Of a DNA stretch of 64,000 nucleotides, positions 2,259-27,377 are shown in pieces (position 1 is the first letter of the stretch; each line of letters begins with the position of its first letter). Under the pieces are notes generated by a model that was not told the DNA's origin, ran no database searches, and saw only the letters and a program-made list of their open reading frames with translations. Source of the stretch: Desulfonatronospira thiodismutans ASO3-1 (GTDB lineage Bacteria > Desulfobacterota > Desulfovibrionia > Desulfovibrionales > Desulfonatronovibrionaceae); contig NZ_ACJN02000001.1 in assembly GCF_000174435.1 (NCBI RefSeq), positions 795,658 through 859,657 on the forward strand, given 5' to 3'. A program made the position numbers and the translations under genes.

Positions 2259-4955
2259 ATGCCATCCGGGAACACTTTTCAGATAAACGGTCAAGACCTG
2301 CCTTTTCAGGAGGGCATGACCATATTGGATGCTGCCCGGATGCACAATATATTTATTCCCACCATGTGCCACCTGCCCGGGGCACCGCCCACCGGTGCCT
2401 GTCGACTGTGCGTAGTAGAGGTCCAGGGGGCGCGCAACCTGGCTGCATCCTGTGTTACCCCGGCCCAGAGGGATATGCAGATCAACACCGAATCCCCCAG
2501 GGTGGTCAACTCCAGGCGGCTTAACCTGCAGCTGCTCCTGGCCATGGGTGAGCACGACTGCCTGCTCTGTCCCTCTTCCGGTCAGTGCGTTCTGCAGGAC
2601 CTGGCTTACCGCTATCAGATAAATCCCAAGAGATTTACCCCGCGGGGAGTCCTGCACCGCACTGAAGCGGTCAACCCCTTTATACTCAGAGACTTCAGCA
2701 AATGTGTTCTTTGCGGGCGCTGTGTGCAGGCCTGCTGCGACATTCAGGTCAACAACGCCATCAGCCATGCCTACCGGGGAATAAAGAGCAAGATAGCAGC
2801 AGCCGGAGACAGGCCCCTCAAGGAATCCGACTGCGTGTTCTGCGGAGAGTGCATGCAGGCCTGTCCTGTGGGCTCCATAATTCCTGTAGATTCCCGGCAG
2901 AGTCCCAGGATCTGGGAGACGCACAAGGTTAAAACCACCTGCGGCTATTGCGGTGTGGGGTGCCAGATGTACCTGCATCACAGAGACGGCGTACTGTACC
3001 GGGTGGAGGGAGACATCCAGAGCCCGCCCAACTACGGCAGTCTGTGCGTCAAAGGCAGGTTCGGGTTCGGCTTTGTCAATTCCAGCAGCCGCCTGCAGAC
3101 GCCTCTGATCCGGGAAAACGGAAATCTTCGCCCGACCGGATGGGAGGAAGCCCTGGACCTGGTACATGAGCGCCTGGAAAATATCCGTATGTCTCATGGA
3201 CCGGATGCACTGGGACTGTTCGCCTCGGCCCGCACCACCAACGAAGACAGCTACGTGGCCCAGAAATTCGCCCGGGCCGTCCTGGGCACCAACAATATAG
3301 ATCATTGTGCGCGGCTCTGACACTCACCCACTGTGGCCGGTCTGGCCAGGGTATTCGGCAGCGGGGCCATGACCAACAGCATAAACGATATAGAACAGGC
3401 CGGTGTCCTGCTGGTTACCGGATCCAACACCACCGAGACTCACCCTGTCCTGGCCGCGGCCATAAAGCGGGCTGTAAAGCACCGCGGTGCAAAGCTCATA
3501 GTGGCTGACCCCAGGCGCATCAGGCTTACGCAGTTTGCTCACATCTGGCTCAGGCAGAATCCCGGCACCGACACAGCCTGGATAAACAGTATGCTGCACG
3601 CAATCATAAACGAAGACCTTCTGGACCATGAATTCGTGGACAACCACACCAGCGGACTTGACCGGCTCCGGGAACACGTGAGCAAATACACACCGGAGTA
3701 TGCAGCCGGGATTACCGGCATCCCTCCGGAGGACCTGATAAAGGCCGCCAGGATGTATGCCCGGGCCCCGGCAGCGTCCATACTTTACACCATGGGCATT
3801 ACCCAGCATACAAGCGGTACCGGCAATGTAATGGCCCTGGCTGATCTGGCCATGCTCTGCGGCAACCTGGGCATCCCTGGAGGCGGCGTAAATCCCCTGC
3901 GGGGGCAGAATAATGTTCAGGGAGCCTGTGACATGGGAGCCCTGCCCGACGTCTACAGCGGCTATCAGAAAGTGGAGGTCCCGGAAAACCGTGAAAAAAT
4001 GGCCCGGGCCTGGAATGTTAAAAGCCTGCCGGATAAACCCGGGATGAAACTGACCGGAATGCTTGCAGGTTCAGGGGAAAATGCCGTAAAGGCCCTGTAC
4101 GTCATCGGAGAAAACCCTGCTCTATCCGATCCTGATGCCCAGCACACCCGAAAGGCCCTGCAAGACCTTGAATTCCTGGTGGTGCAGGATATTTTTCTTA
4201 CCGAGACCGCTTCCATGGCCGACGTGGTTCTGCCGGCATGTTCCTTTGCCGAAAAAGACGGTACTTTTACCAATACCGAAAGAAGGGTACAGCGCGTCAG
4301 AAAGGCCATAGAGCCTGTGGGGCATTCCAGGCCGGACTGGATGATAATCCAGGATCTAGCTTCCAGGTTCGGCTTTTTTATGCACTACCAGTCACCACAG
4401 GATATCATGCAGGAAATTGCCTCGGTTACGCCTTCTTATGCCGGAATCAACTACTCAAGGCTGGAAAAAAAAGGGCTGCAATGGCCCTGTCCCCATCAGG
4501 ATCACCCCGGTACTCCCATCCTGCACAGCCAGGGATTCGCCGCAGGCAGGGCCGGATTTCAGTGCGTGGAATATACACCGCCCGAGGAGACAATTGATGA
4601 GGCTTTTCCCTTGTGGCTAACTACCGGGCGCAGCCTTTATCATTATCATACCGGCAGCATGACCCGCAAAATCCGCGGCCTGAACGCCCTGGAGCGGGAA
4701 TGCTGTCTGGAAGTATCCCCGCAGGATGCACATAAGGCCGGACTTAAAGACCATGACCGGGTCTCGGTGCGCTCCCGCAGGGGGGAGATCACCACCAGGG
4801 TGCGCATATCCAGCGCGGCGGTGCCAGGTGCTGTGTTTATTCCCTTTCATTTCGCCGAAGCCGCGGCCAACGTGCTGACCAACCCCGCCCTGGACCCCGT
4901 GGCCGGGGTGCCGGAATACAAGGTCTGTGCAGTACGCATTGGAATTGTGGATTGA
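2259..4955 (+). CDS. fdhA: Formate dehydrogenase catalytic subunit, selenoprotein (Sec354)
   Basis: An 898-residue molybdo/tungsto-enzyme that oxidises formate to CO2. The in-frame TGA at 3318-3320 is read as selenocysteine 354: the context NNIDHCARL-U-HSPTVAGL is the active-site motif of formate dehydrogenases (compare CCARVUHGPSVAGL in E. coli FdhF), including the catalytic His after Sec. Domains in order: NuoG-like [2Fe-2S] ferredoxin (CRLC near residue 50), His-Cys [4Fe-4S] motif (HDCLLCPSSGQC), two ferredoxin clusters (CVLCGRCVQAC, CVFCGECMQAC), the [4Fe-4S] of the molybdopterin domain (CGYCGVGC, residue 227), then the MGD-binding C-terminus (LWLTTGRSLYHYH). The NuoG-type N-terminus marks the soluble NAD(P)-linked class. 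ATG 2259 is chosen because AAGGA lies 7 bp upstream; a TTG at 2202 would be possible. No Tat signal is seen, so it is cytoplasmic. NuoE/F-like partners lie downstream. Confidence 0.95.
3318..3348 (+). promoter_or_regulatory. SECIS element of fdhA
   Basis: Directly after the Sec codon a hairpin forms: TGGCC at 3334-3338, loop GGTCT at 3339-3343, GGCCA at 3344-3348. The loop begins 19 nt after the TGA. Both the GGUCU loop and this spacing match the E. coli fdhF SECIS element as I remember it, where G and U of the loop contact SelB. The element lies in coding sequence, as usual in bacteria. Confidence 0.85.
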
Positions 4956-4986
4956 TGAATAAGTAAGGAAGTGGTCATTTAGAACG

Positions 4987-20036: not shown

Positions 20037-21212
20037 ATGAAAACCGATATGGAACAAACACATTACGAGGGGGATGAACTCAAGCAGGATCCAGGGACTG
20101 CGGTGCCGGACATCACGGAAATGGATCAGAGAATCCTGTCCGAGATTGTCTGCGTCCAGATAACTCCTGAAGAGATGCACAAAATCATCATGCCCGTCAA
20201 GCAGCAGCCCCATCAGAAGACGGTCCTGGCTGTGCACTGGCACCCGGAATATATCCCCATGGAGCTCATCAAAAAAAGAATTGAGAACACCTTCCCCAAC
20301 AAGGAACAGGAACTCATCATCCCCACCCAGCACAACGAGCTTCTGACTTACGACGACCAATACCATGGTGCGGAGATTGACTGCTATTCCAGGGGATTTC
20401 AGCGCAAGGTGCAGCTTCTGCTGCACTGCAGGCTTGAAGACCCTGACAGGGCGGGCGTTCTGAGATCAATGCTCAACCATACGTATGAATACCGCTCCAG
20501 CCAGCTTTTTGAACTTCTGGACACTTTCATGGATCCCAAGTGGGAAGACTATCTGCAGCTGGCCGCCGAAGGCACCGGAGTCGGGGAAGAAGTGGTCCAT
20601 TTTGCCAGGGTTCAGACCTACAAACTATACCGTCTGCTTCAGGAACATAAGAACTCCATCTCCAGGGATTTTTTGAAAAACAAGCTGCTGCGGGACTTTA
20701 TTGACGGCCAGAGACACCTTTACCCCGACCAGTTCATCAACAGGGTCCAGGTGTTCGTCAAATCCGTAAAAAAAATCGTCAAGGCCAACTTCAGCCTGGA
20801 ATACTTCTACCGCACCTCTGAAGTCATCGAAGAGGCCAGAAGCCTGGGATGCGGTATAGTTGTGCCCCACCCTGAACAGTTCTGGCCCATACTGCTTTGT
20901 GACTACGACATAGACGGTTACGAAGTGTGGAACCCCCAGTCCAGGGAATATACCGAGTTCCTGGTCAATGTCATCAACCGCCAGAACAAATCCAGGAGCA
21001 GGTCCCAGAGACCCCTTCTGGTATTTATGGGCGATGACGCCCACATGGGGGAAAAAATAAAGGACCCCACTAAAATAGAGGCCGCCAAGTACTACCGGGA
21101 AATCGGGGTTCAGCCGGCATGGGATGATCTGACCATTAAAAAGTCGCTGATCATAGGCAACTTTGACCGCCGGAAAGTAATGAATGAGTATAAGACCAGG
21201 CTGGATGGATAA
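20037..21212 (+). CDS. PHP-like metal-dependent hydrolase (GAK cluster)
   Basis: A 391-residue protein with scattered motifs of the PHP phosphoesterase superfamily: HWHPEYIP near residue 67, HNEL near 102, VVPHPEQFWPI near 278 and MGDDAHMGEK near 330. These could ligate two or three metal ions for phosphate-ester hydrolysis. The order HxH - H - H - DxH supports the call, but I cannot name a family. Starts at 20037 and 20049 are both possible and neither has a strong ribosome site; translation is probably coupled to the upstream gene (7 bp apart). Its stop overlaps the next ATG (TAATG), so the cluster is an operon. Confidence 0.65.
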   Translation: MKTDMEQTHYEGDELKQDPGTAVPDITEMDQRILSEIVCVQITPEEMHKIIMPVKQQPHQKTVLAVHWHPEYIPMELIKKRIENTFPNKEQELIIPTQHNELLTYDDQYHGAEIDCYSRGFQRKVQLLLHCRLEDPDRAGVLRSMLNHTYEYRSSQLFELLDTFMDPKWEDYLQLAAEGTGVGEEVVHFARVQTYKLYRLLQEHKNSISRDFLKNKLLRDFIDGQRHLYPDQFINRVQVFVKSVKKIVKANFSLEYFYRTSEVIEEARSLGCGIVVPHPEQFWPILLCDYDIDGYEVWNPQSREYTEFLVNVINRQNKSRSRSQRPLLVFMGDDAHMGEKIKDPTKIEAAKYYREIGVQPAWDDLTIKKSLIIGNFDRRKVMNEYKTRLDG

Positions 21213-21499: not shown

Positions 21500-23146
21500 A
21501 TGCCTTATTTCAGTGACCTGGAAGAAAAAATCCATTTTATGGTCCTGGAAGTAAACAGGCAGCTCGACGACACCCTGAAAATCATCCAGGATCCTGATCC
21601 CAGACTGGTGGACAAGGTCAAATCCCGGGACGACCGCATAGATAATTACAAGGTCATCATTGAAAACCTGTGTTTTTCCAGGATTCACGGAGAGGAAAAC
21701 CTGAGCAAAAAACAGGTGGACTTTATCCGGGCCACCAACATCATCAGCAACAACCTGGAAAAAATCAGCGACTTCTCGGTTTACATAGTCGATCAATTGA
21801 ACTACCTGTCCAGCGTTGAATACCTGCACAACTACAATTACCAGCCTTTTTTCCAGCATCTGAGCAGTTCACTGGACATGGTGGTCCAGGGACTGTTTAC
21901 ACGGGACCTGAACCATGCCCTGAACATCTGTAGAACCGAATTTGTTATAGACAAGCTCTTCAAGCGTGTTTTTGATCAGATTATCGAGGAACTCGACACC
22001 GCCCCCAATAAACAGAATATCATAACCTGCCTGTTTATATTCCGCTACCTGGAAAGAATGGGGGATGCCCTGCTCAACATCGGAGAAGCCATTATTTTCT
22101 CCGTATTCGGCGAAAAGCTGAAAATTCATCAGTATCAGGCCCTGGTGGAAAACCTGGACTCCATAAACAACGATATTTCCATCCAGGACGTGGGATTTGA
22201 GTCCATCTGGGAATCCAGATCAGGCTGCCGCATTGGTAAAATCATGGATTCTTCCCGCAGCGGCAGCCAGGGTGTCCTTTTCAAGGAAGGCAAGGCCGAA
22301 AAAATATCCAGGGAAAAAGAAAACATAGAGAGCTGGAAAAAGATATTTCCCAGTCTGGTTCCCAAAATATTCAGTTATACCCAGAGCAGAAAAAACGCGT
22401 CCATGCTGCTGGAATTTCTCCCCGGGTGCTCCCTGCAGGAGACAGTTCTGACCCAGGACCGGGACACCCTGGAAAACGCTTTGTTCATCCTCAAGGAAAC
22501 CCTGTCAATCACATGGAAAGATACCCTCAAGAACAAGCAGGTAAGTTCCGGATTTATGAAGCAGCTTGCCCAGCGAATCGACGACGTGCTCATGATTCAC
22601 CCGGAATTCAATTTTTCCGAAGCCAGTATCGGATCCCTGACCACCCCTTCTCTGGAGGACGTTATCAGGATCCTTAGCGAAGTGGAGGCCGAACTTAATG
22701 CTCCATTCTGCATATTTATCCACGGTGACTTTAACACCAACAACATAATCTACAATCAGAAAGAACAGCAGATCTACTTTATTGATCTGCACAGATCCTG
22801 CTACGGAGATTATGTCCAGGATGTATCTGTATTTCTGGTATCCAACTATCGCAAACCCGTTTTTGATGCCGGGATACGCAGGCTCATCAACCGGCTGAAC
22901 CAGGATTTTTTCAATTTTTCCAGGCGATTTGCAGCGGAAAATGCAGATGAAACCTTTGATGCCAGGCTGGCCATGGGACTGATCCGCTCTTTTTTCACTT
23001 CCACACGCTTTGAACTCAACCAGGAATTCGCTCTTGGCATGTACCAGCGGGCCCTGTACCTGGCTGAAAAAATCATCGCCCACAGGGGAAGGCCCTGGAG
23101 AGAGTTTTCCTTGCCGCCGGATGTGTTTAAATATGCAAGCTTCTGA
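21500..23146 (+). CDS. PhoU-like domain fused to an APH-type kinase (GAK cluster)
   Basis: A 548-residue two-domain protein. Residues 1-220 are helical and PhoU-like (DDRIDNYKVIIENLCFSRIH, then IISNNLEKISDFSVYIVDQL and FIFRYLERMGDALLNIGEAI, the ExxxD/ RxxD-rich helices of PhoU that bind metal clusters). Residues 235-520 are an aminoglycoside-phosphotransferase-type kinase: LLEFLPGCSLQETV (hinge), FIHGDFNTNNIIYN near 408 (catalytic loop with HGD-x4-N) and YFIDLHRSCYGDY near 428 (metal-binding ID). All key residues are present, so it should phosphorylate a small molecule. It may fill the kinase position of the cluster. A 410-bp repeat-filled gap separates it from the ATP-grasp gene. Confidence 0.8.
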   Translation: MPYFSDLEEKIHFMVLEVNRQLDDTLKIIQDPDPRLVDKVKSRDDRIDNYKVIIENLCFSRIHGEENLSKKQVDFIRATNIISNNLEKISDFSVYIVDQLNYLSSVEYLHNYNYQPFFQHLSSSLDMVVQGLFTRDLNHALNICRTEFVIDKLFKRVFDQIIEELDTAPNKQNIITCLFIFRYLERMGDALLNIGEAIIFSVFGEKLKIHQYQALVENLDSINNDISIQDVGFESIWESRSGCRIGKIMDSSRSGSQGVLFKEGKAEKISREKENIESWKKIFPSLVPKIFSYTQSRKNASMLLEFLPGCSLQETVLTQDRDTLENALFILKETLSITWKDTLKNKQVSSGFMKQLAQRIDDVLMIHPEFNFSEASIGSLTTPSLEDVIRILSEVEAELNAPFCIFIHGDFNTNNIIYNQKEQQIYFIDLHRSCYGDYVQDVSVFLVSNYRKPVFDAGIRRLINRLNQDFFNFSRRFAAENADETFDARLAMGLIRSFFTSTRFELNQEFALGMYQRALYLAEKIIAHRGRPWREFSLPPDVFKYASF

Positions 23147-26317: not shown

Positions 26318-26337
26318 CCATGAAAAAGGAACATATC

Positions 26338-26547
26338 ATGCCCAGAACCATTATATACGGCAAAAGCACATGACCCTTTACCAATAAGGCCCGTGAGGCT
26401 TATAAAGATCACGACTACGTGGATGTTGTGGAAAAACCGGAGGAACTGCAGAAAATGCTGGAACTGTCAGGAGGCAAGCGCAAGGTTCCGGTAATTGTTC
26501 AGGGCGAAAATGTAACCATTGGCCATAACGGCTCCTGAGGCGTGTAG
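26338..26547 (+). CDS. Glutaredoxin-like small protein with two selenocysteines
   Basis: A 69-residue protein whose frame contains two TGA codons before the TAG stop. It starts MPRTIIYGKST-U-PFTNKAR, where the first TGA (26371-26373, residue 12) replaces the first Cys of a glutaredoxin CPxx active site. Conserved glutaredoxin features follow: VPVIVQGENVTIG (cis-Pro strand) and a glycine turn. The second TGA (26536-26538, residue 67) sits in NGS-U-GV at the very C-terminus. This matches what I recall of NCBI 'Uxx-star' glutaredoxin-like selenoproteins. AAGGA lies 7 bp before ATG 26338. A hairpin whose loop starts 19 nt downstream accompanies each TGA. A thiol/selenol redox role is inferred; it follows the GAK cluster. 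Confidence 0.85.
26371..26403 (+). promoter_or_regulatory. Candidate SECIS for Sec12 of the glutaredoxin-like protein
   Basis: ATAAG(G)CC at 26384-26391 pairs with GGCTTAT at 26397-26403 with one bulged G; the loop is CGTGA at 26392-26396. The loop starts 19 nt after the TGA and has G-T at positions 2-3, as in the fdhA element. Confidence 0.7.
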
Positions 26548-26567
26548 TCTACCGGCAGGATGCCGGT
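26536..26567 (+). promoter_or_regulatory. Candidate SECIS for Sec67, in the 3' untranslated region
   Basis: ACCGGC at 26551-26556 and GCCGGT at 26562-26567 form a perfect stem with loop AGGAT. The loop again starts 19 nt after the TGA. It begins just after the TAG stop, so it is free of coding constraint. It could also act as a weak terminator. Confidence 0.62.
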
Positions 26568-26578
26568 TTGCAGGCGCA

Positions 26579-26697
26579 GAGGACAGGGATCAGAGGTCAG
26601 GGGTCAGGGGTCAGAGACTTTAGCGACTTAAGCGACTTTAGCGAAGAGGTCGGAGGGCAGAGGACGTCGCTTAAGTCGCTAACAGAGATCAGAGGTC
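26579..26697. repeat. GTCAGAGG-type degenerate heptad repeat
   Basis: Tandem variants of CAGAGGACAGGGATCAGAGG are followed by an inverted repeat, GACTTTAGCGACTTAAGCGA against TCGCTTAAGTCGCTAA. The array reaches into the 3' end of nadD. The same purine-rich repeat occurs inside three histidine kinase genes at 47206, 59560 and 63760. Confidence 0.7.
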
Positions 26698-27377
26698 TTT
26701 GCAGCCTGTGCTGAACTTTTTTCCCACAAAGTCCGTACCTCCCCGGATGAACCTGCCAGGATGTCTCTGACCCGGAAGGGCACCAGCCAGTCTATGCTTT
26801 TTCCAGCCAGCCATCTGGAGCGGATCATGGATGAACTGATCTCCAGCCTGGGAACGCTGTAAAAACTGATCCTTTTGCCGTTTTCCAACTCCCAGCATTT
26901 CTCATTCTCCTGCTCTACTTTCCAGAATCTGGATGCAAAAACGCCTACCTGGAAGTGCTCGCCCTGCCTGCCTATTACCAGCAGATTGCTCAGACGGGCA
27001 AGTTCCTGTCCACGATGCCACTTGGGCAATGTAAACAGATCCGTATCCCCCAGGATAAAATTGAGTTCATACTCTGGATATTCACTCCTGTATGCTTTCA
27101 GGGTATCCACGGTGTAGGAAGGCCCCGGCCTGTCCTGCTCCAGGGGGTTTACTTCCAGTCCGGCAACACCGTCTATGCTTTCCTGCAGCATGCGCAGCCT
27201 CATAGCAAAGGGAAGTATACCGGCCGGATCCTTGTGCGGAGGAATGTATGCCGGCACCAGTTCCACCCGGTCCAGGCCGGCCTGCTCCAGCATCTCCAGG
27301 CACAGACGCAAATGCCCGATGTGTACAGGATTGAAGCTGCCTCCCAGCAGGCCGATACGTGGAGTTTTATTGCTCAT
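26679..27377 (-). CDS. nadD: Nicotinate-nucleotide adenylyltransferase
   Basis: A 232-residue enzyme making deamido-NAD from nicotinate mononucleotide and ATP. It begins MSNKTPRIGLLGGSFNPVHI; GGSFNPVHIGHLRL is the HxGH nucleotidyltransferase motif. LGDTDLFTLPKWHRGQEL and the C-terminal EISSSMIRSRWLAGKSIDWL (ISSTxIR motif) fit NadD. A start six codons earlier (27395) is possible. The last residues (AQAAKTSDLC) are encoded by the local GTCAGAGG repeat, so the natural C-terminus may have been altered by repeat growth. It is transcribed away from uvrB's downstream region. Confidence 0.92.
   Translation of the reverse strand: MSNKTPRIGLLGGSFNPVHIGHLRLCLEMLEQAGLDRVELVPAYIPPHKDPAGILPFAMRLRMLQESIDGVAGLEVNPLEQDRPGPSYTVDTLKAYRSEYPEYELNFILGDTDLFTLPKWHRGQELARLSNLLVIGRQGEHFQVGVFASRFWKVEQENEKCWELENGKRISFYSVPRLEISSSMIRSRWLAGKSIDWLVPFRVRDILAGSSGEVRTLWEKSSAQAAKTSDLC

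Follow-up and report, generated by a model that had tools for sequence, protein, structure and literature searches.

This locus raises the question of whether a short frame broken twice by TGA encodes a small glutaredoxin-like protein with two selenocysteines (Sec, U), as the original prediction proposed, and what such a protein might do. The frame lies on the forward strand at positions 26338–26547 of the window, i.e. the whole stretch of 64,000 nucleotides of Desulfonatronospira thiodismutans ASO3-1 DNA that was analysed. Translation bore out these coordinates as well as the claim that a single frame is interrupted only by the TGA codons at 26371 and 26536 before the TAG stop (26545–26547). 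When TGA is read as Sec, the product is a protein of 69 residues, MPRTIIYGKSTUPFTNKAREAYKDHDYVDVVEKPEELQKMLELSGGKRKVPVIVQGENVTIGHNGSUGV, with U at positions 12 and 67. The codon for Sec12 (26371–26373, forward strand) stands at the place of the glutaredoxin nucleophile in the sequence U-P-F-T, and the codon for Sec67 (26536–26538, forward strand) is found in U-G-V-stop, where UGA, GGC, GTG and TAG follow one another and UGA is thus exactly three codons ahead of the stop. The predicted ribosome site is also present, as a probable AAGGA sequence at 26326–26330 of the same strand, 7 nt before the ATG. The standard list of open reading frames contains no forward-strand frame for the gene, which was indeed overlooked by ORF calling.

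The window gene almost certainly encodes a double selenoprotein of UXX-star family 1. Its product matches the NCBIfam profile NF041114.2 (UXX-star selenoprotein family 1) with 107.2 bits against a cut-off of 72, and the alignment joins protein residues 5–69 to positions 2–70 of the 70 in the profile. The site U12-P-F-T agrees with the [UC]-P-x-T site of NF041114, and the name UXX-star suits the tail of the protein, since Sec is followed there by two residues and then by the stop. The Pfam glutaredoxin family PF00462 is matched as well (36 bits, cut-off 22.9). NF041114 is described in the literature as ‘Distant Grx-like protein 1 (UXX-star selenoprotein family 1)’, with a UxxT motif and two Sec (PMC13188914), and Distant Grx-like protein 1 is also given in PMC9312934. 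The 69-residue double selenoprotein is genuine, but as a member of a catalogued family it is a confirmation and not a discovery; its novelty is low because UXX-star family 1 has already been both curated and reviewed.

A profile search of 348 genomes of the class revealed a match above the cut-off in 73 of them, and 72 complete genes from genomes other than that of the window were used as the homologue set. Related genomes had been expected to carry U or C at both TGA sites, and this expectation held. The tail site is TGA in all 72 homologues, Sec67 never being swapped for Cys, whereas at site 12 there are 32 genes with TGA and 40 with Cys, the state having switched at least six times on the family tree. 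The third codon after the tail Sec is a stop in 71 of the 72 genes (TGA in 30, TAG in 24, TAA in 17). The only homologue without this stop, L116 from genome G064, continues after U-I-V for about 12 residues over an intact hairpin. In the alignment without homologue L075, the invariant columns are G8, U/C12, P13, T15, A18, P51, G62 and U67. Stops elsewhere in the frame would have spoken against the original prediction; 71 frames are free of such a break, and the one exception is L075 itself, from a fragmented draft of the window's genus (genome G001), where a third in-frame TGA replaces Gly8 and turns YGK into YUK. This TGA stems more likely from an error in the sequence or from decay than from a third Sec.

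The nearest relative (G002) retains both TGAs, and its substitutions relative to the window are chiefly third-position changes. The U-x-x-stop tail also occurs in relatives from Pelotomaculum, Anaeromyxobacter, Planctomycetes, Acidobacteria and other Deltaproteobacteria; the scan which detected these relatives used a Cys12 pattern, so that Cys12 forms are favoured among its matches and the ratio of U to C at site 12 cannot be read from them. No relatives of the selenoprotein were found in viral contigs. Matches of the wider superfamily lacking the stop were considered as possible Cys67 versions of family 1 and rejected: where they were read, they proved to be ordinary glutaredoxin-like proteins with the last helix, or to have other tails.

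Each UGA is followed by a SECIS-like hairpin on the forward strand. Hairpin 1 (26387–26401, AGGCC-CGUGA-GGCUU) lies within the coding sequence, and hairpin 2 (26551–26567, ACCGGC-AGGAU-GCCGGU) wholly past the stop codon. Their 5-nt loops (CGUGA and AGGAU) both start at the 19th nucleotide after the respective UGA, and the form of both agrees with the model of a bacterial SECIS given in PMC13188914, namely a loop of 3–9 nt with an early G on a stem of at least 4 bp, 16–37 nt from the UGA. A scan of the window against Rfam detected no family at threshold. Hairpin 1 folds only slightly better than shuffled sequences (z −1.0), and hairpin 2 has a z of −2.9. As 3.6% of all the window's TGA triplets are followed by a stem of at least 5 bp in the same register, the hairpins alone are weak evidence; the case for a selenoprotein is made by the homologues, with UGA at the second site in 72 of 72, together with covariation far above that of shuffles.

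For the 6-bp stem of UGA67, 94.0% of the cells are paired across 56 sequences (75.8% when shuffled), 62 cells are double-changed against 15.4 ± 3.1, and 17 further pair types occur against 11.1, none of 500 shuffles attaining any of these three measures. Since this stem follows the stop codon, its covariation is not explained by coding constraint. For the 5-bp stem of UGA12, 92.5% of cells are paired in the 32 Sec forms and 31 are double-changed, against 13.3 ± 3.6. The covariation of hairpin 1 is weaker in Cys forms; it is fully paired in 19 of the 32 Sec12 forms and in 6 of the 40 Cys12 forms. Kinship among sequences can by itself exceed such shuffles without any structure, but shifting the stem partners by one to three columns also makes the covariation score fall sharply for both hairpins.

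The exact spacing of 19 nt that had been claimed applies to both hairpins of the window and to the UGA of an fdhA-like gene, but across the homologues it is typical without being constant. A greedy best-hairpin count puts the distance from UGA to loop at 18–19 nt in 31 of 32 cases for UGA12 and at anything from 13 to 24 nt for UGA67; usually it is 16–21 nt. The fdhA-like gene itself, at about 2601–4982, has an in-frame TGA at 3318 (DHCARL-U-HSP), and the SECIS-like hairpin that follows it keeps this register. The stop of the window gene is UAG; in 30 of the 72 homologues it is a UGA situated 9 nt past the Sec UGA, so that in these genes the one hairpin has to designate the first UGA and leave out the second.

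The genome of the window is fully competent for Sec, as it encodes tRNA-Sec (81 bits), SelB (377), SelA (606) and SelD (397), all above cut-off; its SelD gene carries one in-frame TGA of its own. Sec insertion at UGA12 and UGA67, which we infer, is a strongly supported prediction, and the match to a curated family and the Sec-competent genome agree with the view of the locus as a glutaredoxin-like protein with two Sec, each with a SECIS hairpin of its own. The two in-frame TGAs, and the third one of L075, could also be taken for chance stops in a decayed glutaredoxin pseudogene. We give this explanation practically no credence and rejected it, because dozens of genomes share these UGAs, their conservation extends through the class and into other phyla, codon change is of the purifying kind and the hairpins covary.

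An AlphaFold2 model, computed from a 63-row alignment with Sec modelled as Cys, has a mean pLDDT of 87.7 and the order strand–helix–strand–helix–strand–strand followed by a short tail. Its closest PDB matches are the glutaredoxins 3ic4 and 4tr0 (TM 0.77–0.78). The selenoprotein is accordingly predicted to have a shortened glutaredoxin fold, the chain ending just past the GG loop with Sec67 near its end. In known glutaredoxins the GG loop borders the active site, so Sec67 is expected, by analogy, to be close to residue 12 in the fold.

As an explanation of the whole, we lean, by a little more than even chance, towards a functional UXX-star family 1 double selenoprotein with Sec at both UGAs and with residues 12 and 67 acting as a redox pair. 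SelB and tRNA-Sec would read UGA12 and UGA67 as Sec, each codon being directed by its own downstream hairpin, that of UGA67 in the 3′ untranslated region. Sec12, replaced by Cys12 in many relatives, would form the redox pair with Sec67: once one of the two residues had attacked a disulfide, a peroxide or a metal(loid)–thiolate substrate, its partner would resolve the intermediate as an internal diselenide or selenenyl-sulfide. We infer this pairing, and likewise the substrate and the reductant. As Sec67 is never exchanged and residue 12 often is, Sec67 would be the centre that the protein cannot do without, and residue 12 would be its partner. More tentatively, and at somewhat less than even probability, one may picture a minimal redox protein in which a natural diselenide links the irreplaceable Sec67 to residue 12, two UGAs 9 nt apart being decoded, in many homologues, as Sec and then as stop under a single 3′-UTR hairpin.

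The conservation pattern, with position 12 always U or C and position 67 always U, is compatible both with an internal diselenide or selenenyl-sulfide and with a role in ligating metal(loid)s. Two points count against the redox pair: Thr occupies the place of the second Cys of a dithiol glutaredoxin (CPYC), and the absence of Cys67 from all 72 homologues could also indicate binding of metal or selenium and not simple redox chemistry of the thiol type. Sec67 and residue 12 might then constitute a site for soft metals (Hg, As, Cu) in a protein that binds or sequesters metal or metalloid without any redox cycle, and a 2026 review suggests that the Sec of UXX-star proteins may serve as a metal-binding ligand (PMC13188914). 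We regard this, the main rival of the redox pair, as rather unlikely, since the protein has a glutaredoxin fold, the proline of its VP motif is invariant and it carries the sequence pattern YGK-x-x-[UC]-P-x-T, and the neighbour table, in which genes were not annotated singly, contains no neighbour family recurring across genera that would suggest metal resistance.

The surroundings of the gene bear on a further proposal, that the selenoprotein acts in partnership with the GAK system, the ATP-grasp/CofD-like/kinase cluster upstream of it. This cluster comprises ATP-grasp, CofD-like and XXXCH genes and ends with an amphi-Trp domain gene (TIGR04354; 25790–26278, forward strand), 59 nt upstream of the selenoprotein gene, which is convergent with nadD in the window. 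The amphi-Trp/GAK arrangement recurs, but only within the window's own genus. In another large group of homologues, from other genera, the gene follows pnp (recognised by eye, without a profile), elsewhere it has different neighbours, and outside the genus the next downstream gene usually faces it. These observations come from a reduced neighbour table, six-frame clustering having been set aside as full of shadow ORFs. With the arrangement confined to one genus, a GAK partnership is unsupported as the general function; the redox partnership that had been suggested from the position of the gene is not sustained, and we consider the proposal very improbable.

Some features of the neighbourhood deserve mention in their own right. 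Inside the GAK cluster, a protein of 391 aa (20037–21212) has no NCBIfam match and adjoins a PhoU-like/kinase-like fusion (21500–23146). After the selenoprotein gene, the interval 26585–26700 contains short GGGGTCAG-type and TTTAGCGACTTAAGCGAC repeats, and about six further sites in the genome have short pieces resembling them.

The locus confirms that short double selenoproteins drop out of raw ORF calls. The 72 homologues represent a natural test set in which Cys freely takes the place of Sec at one site and never at the other, and it could help to ask when selenium is truly irreplaceable; the 30 genes with a UGA stop could likewise help to ask how SelB recognises a Sec UGA when a stop UGA lies close by. 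The mildly fresh aspects of the locus are this discrimination between Sec UGA and stop UGA and the contrast of an invariant Sec67 with an exchangeable residue 12.

Compared with UXX-star family 1 (NF041114), the window protein is a further sequence of the family without substantive difference. UXX-star families 2 and 3 (NF041211 and NF047338) and the HUGP/GUXX-star fusion (NF045501) have a homologous short Grx-like domain; the window protein scores 53, 47 and 42 bits with them, respectively, under the cut-offs of 100, 97 and 325. The short fold without the tail Sec is seen in part of the wider superfamily, for instance in L182 and L186, whose tails are GGSEF-stop and GGTAF-TGA, whereas the window protein has Sec67. 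With classical dithiol glutaredoxins it shares the glutaredoxin fold (from the predicted structure and PF00462), and in place of their CPYC/CxxC motif it carries U12-P-F-T15. Glutaredoxin 3/Clostridium cGrx2 (PF00462; PDB 4tr0) has the fold (TM 0.78, rmsd 1.4), the VP motif and the active-site position 12 in common with the window protein, which differs from it in having Thr15 instead of the second active-site Cys, in lacking the C-terminal helix and in ending with Sec-x-x; its chain terminates where ordinary glutaredoxins start their last helix. The Clostridium selenoprotein glutaredoxin, listed in PMC13188914, has Sec at the nucleophile position, as the window protein does, but it contains a single Sec in a UxxC motif and none in the tail, whereas the window protein combines UxxT with a tail Sec.
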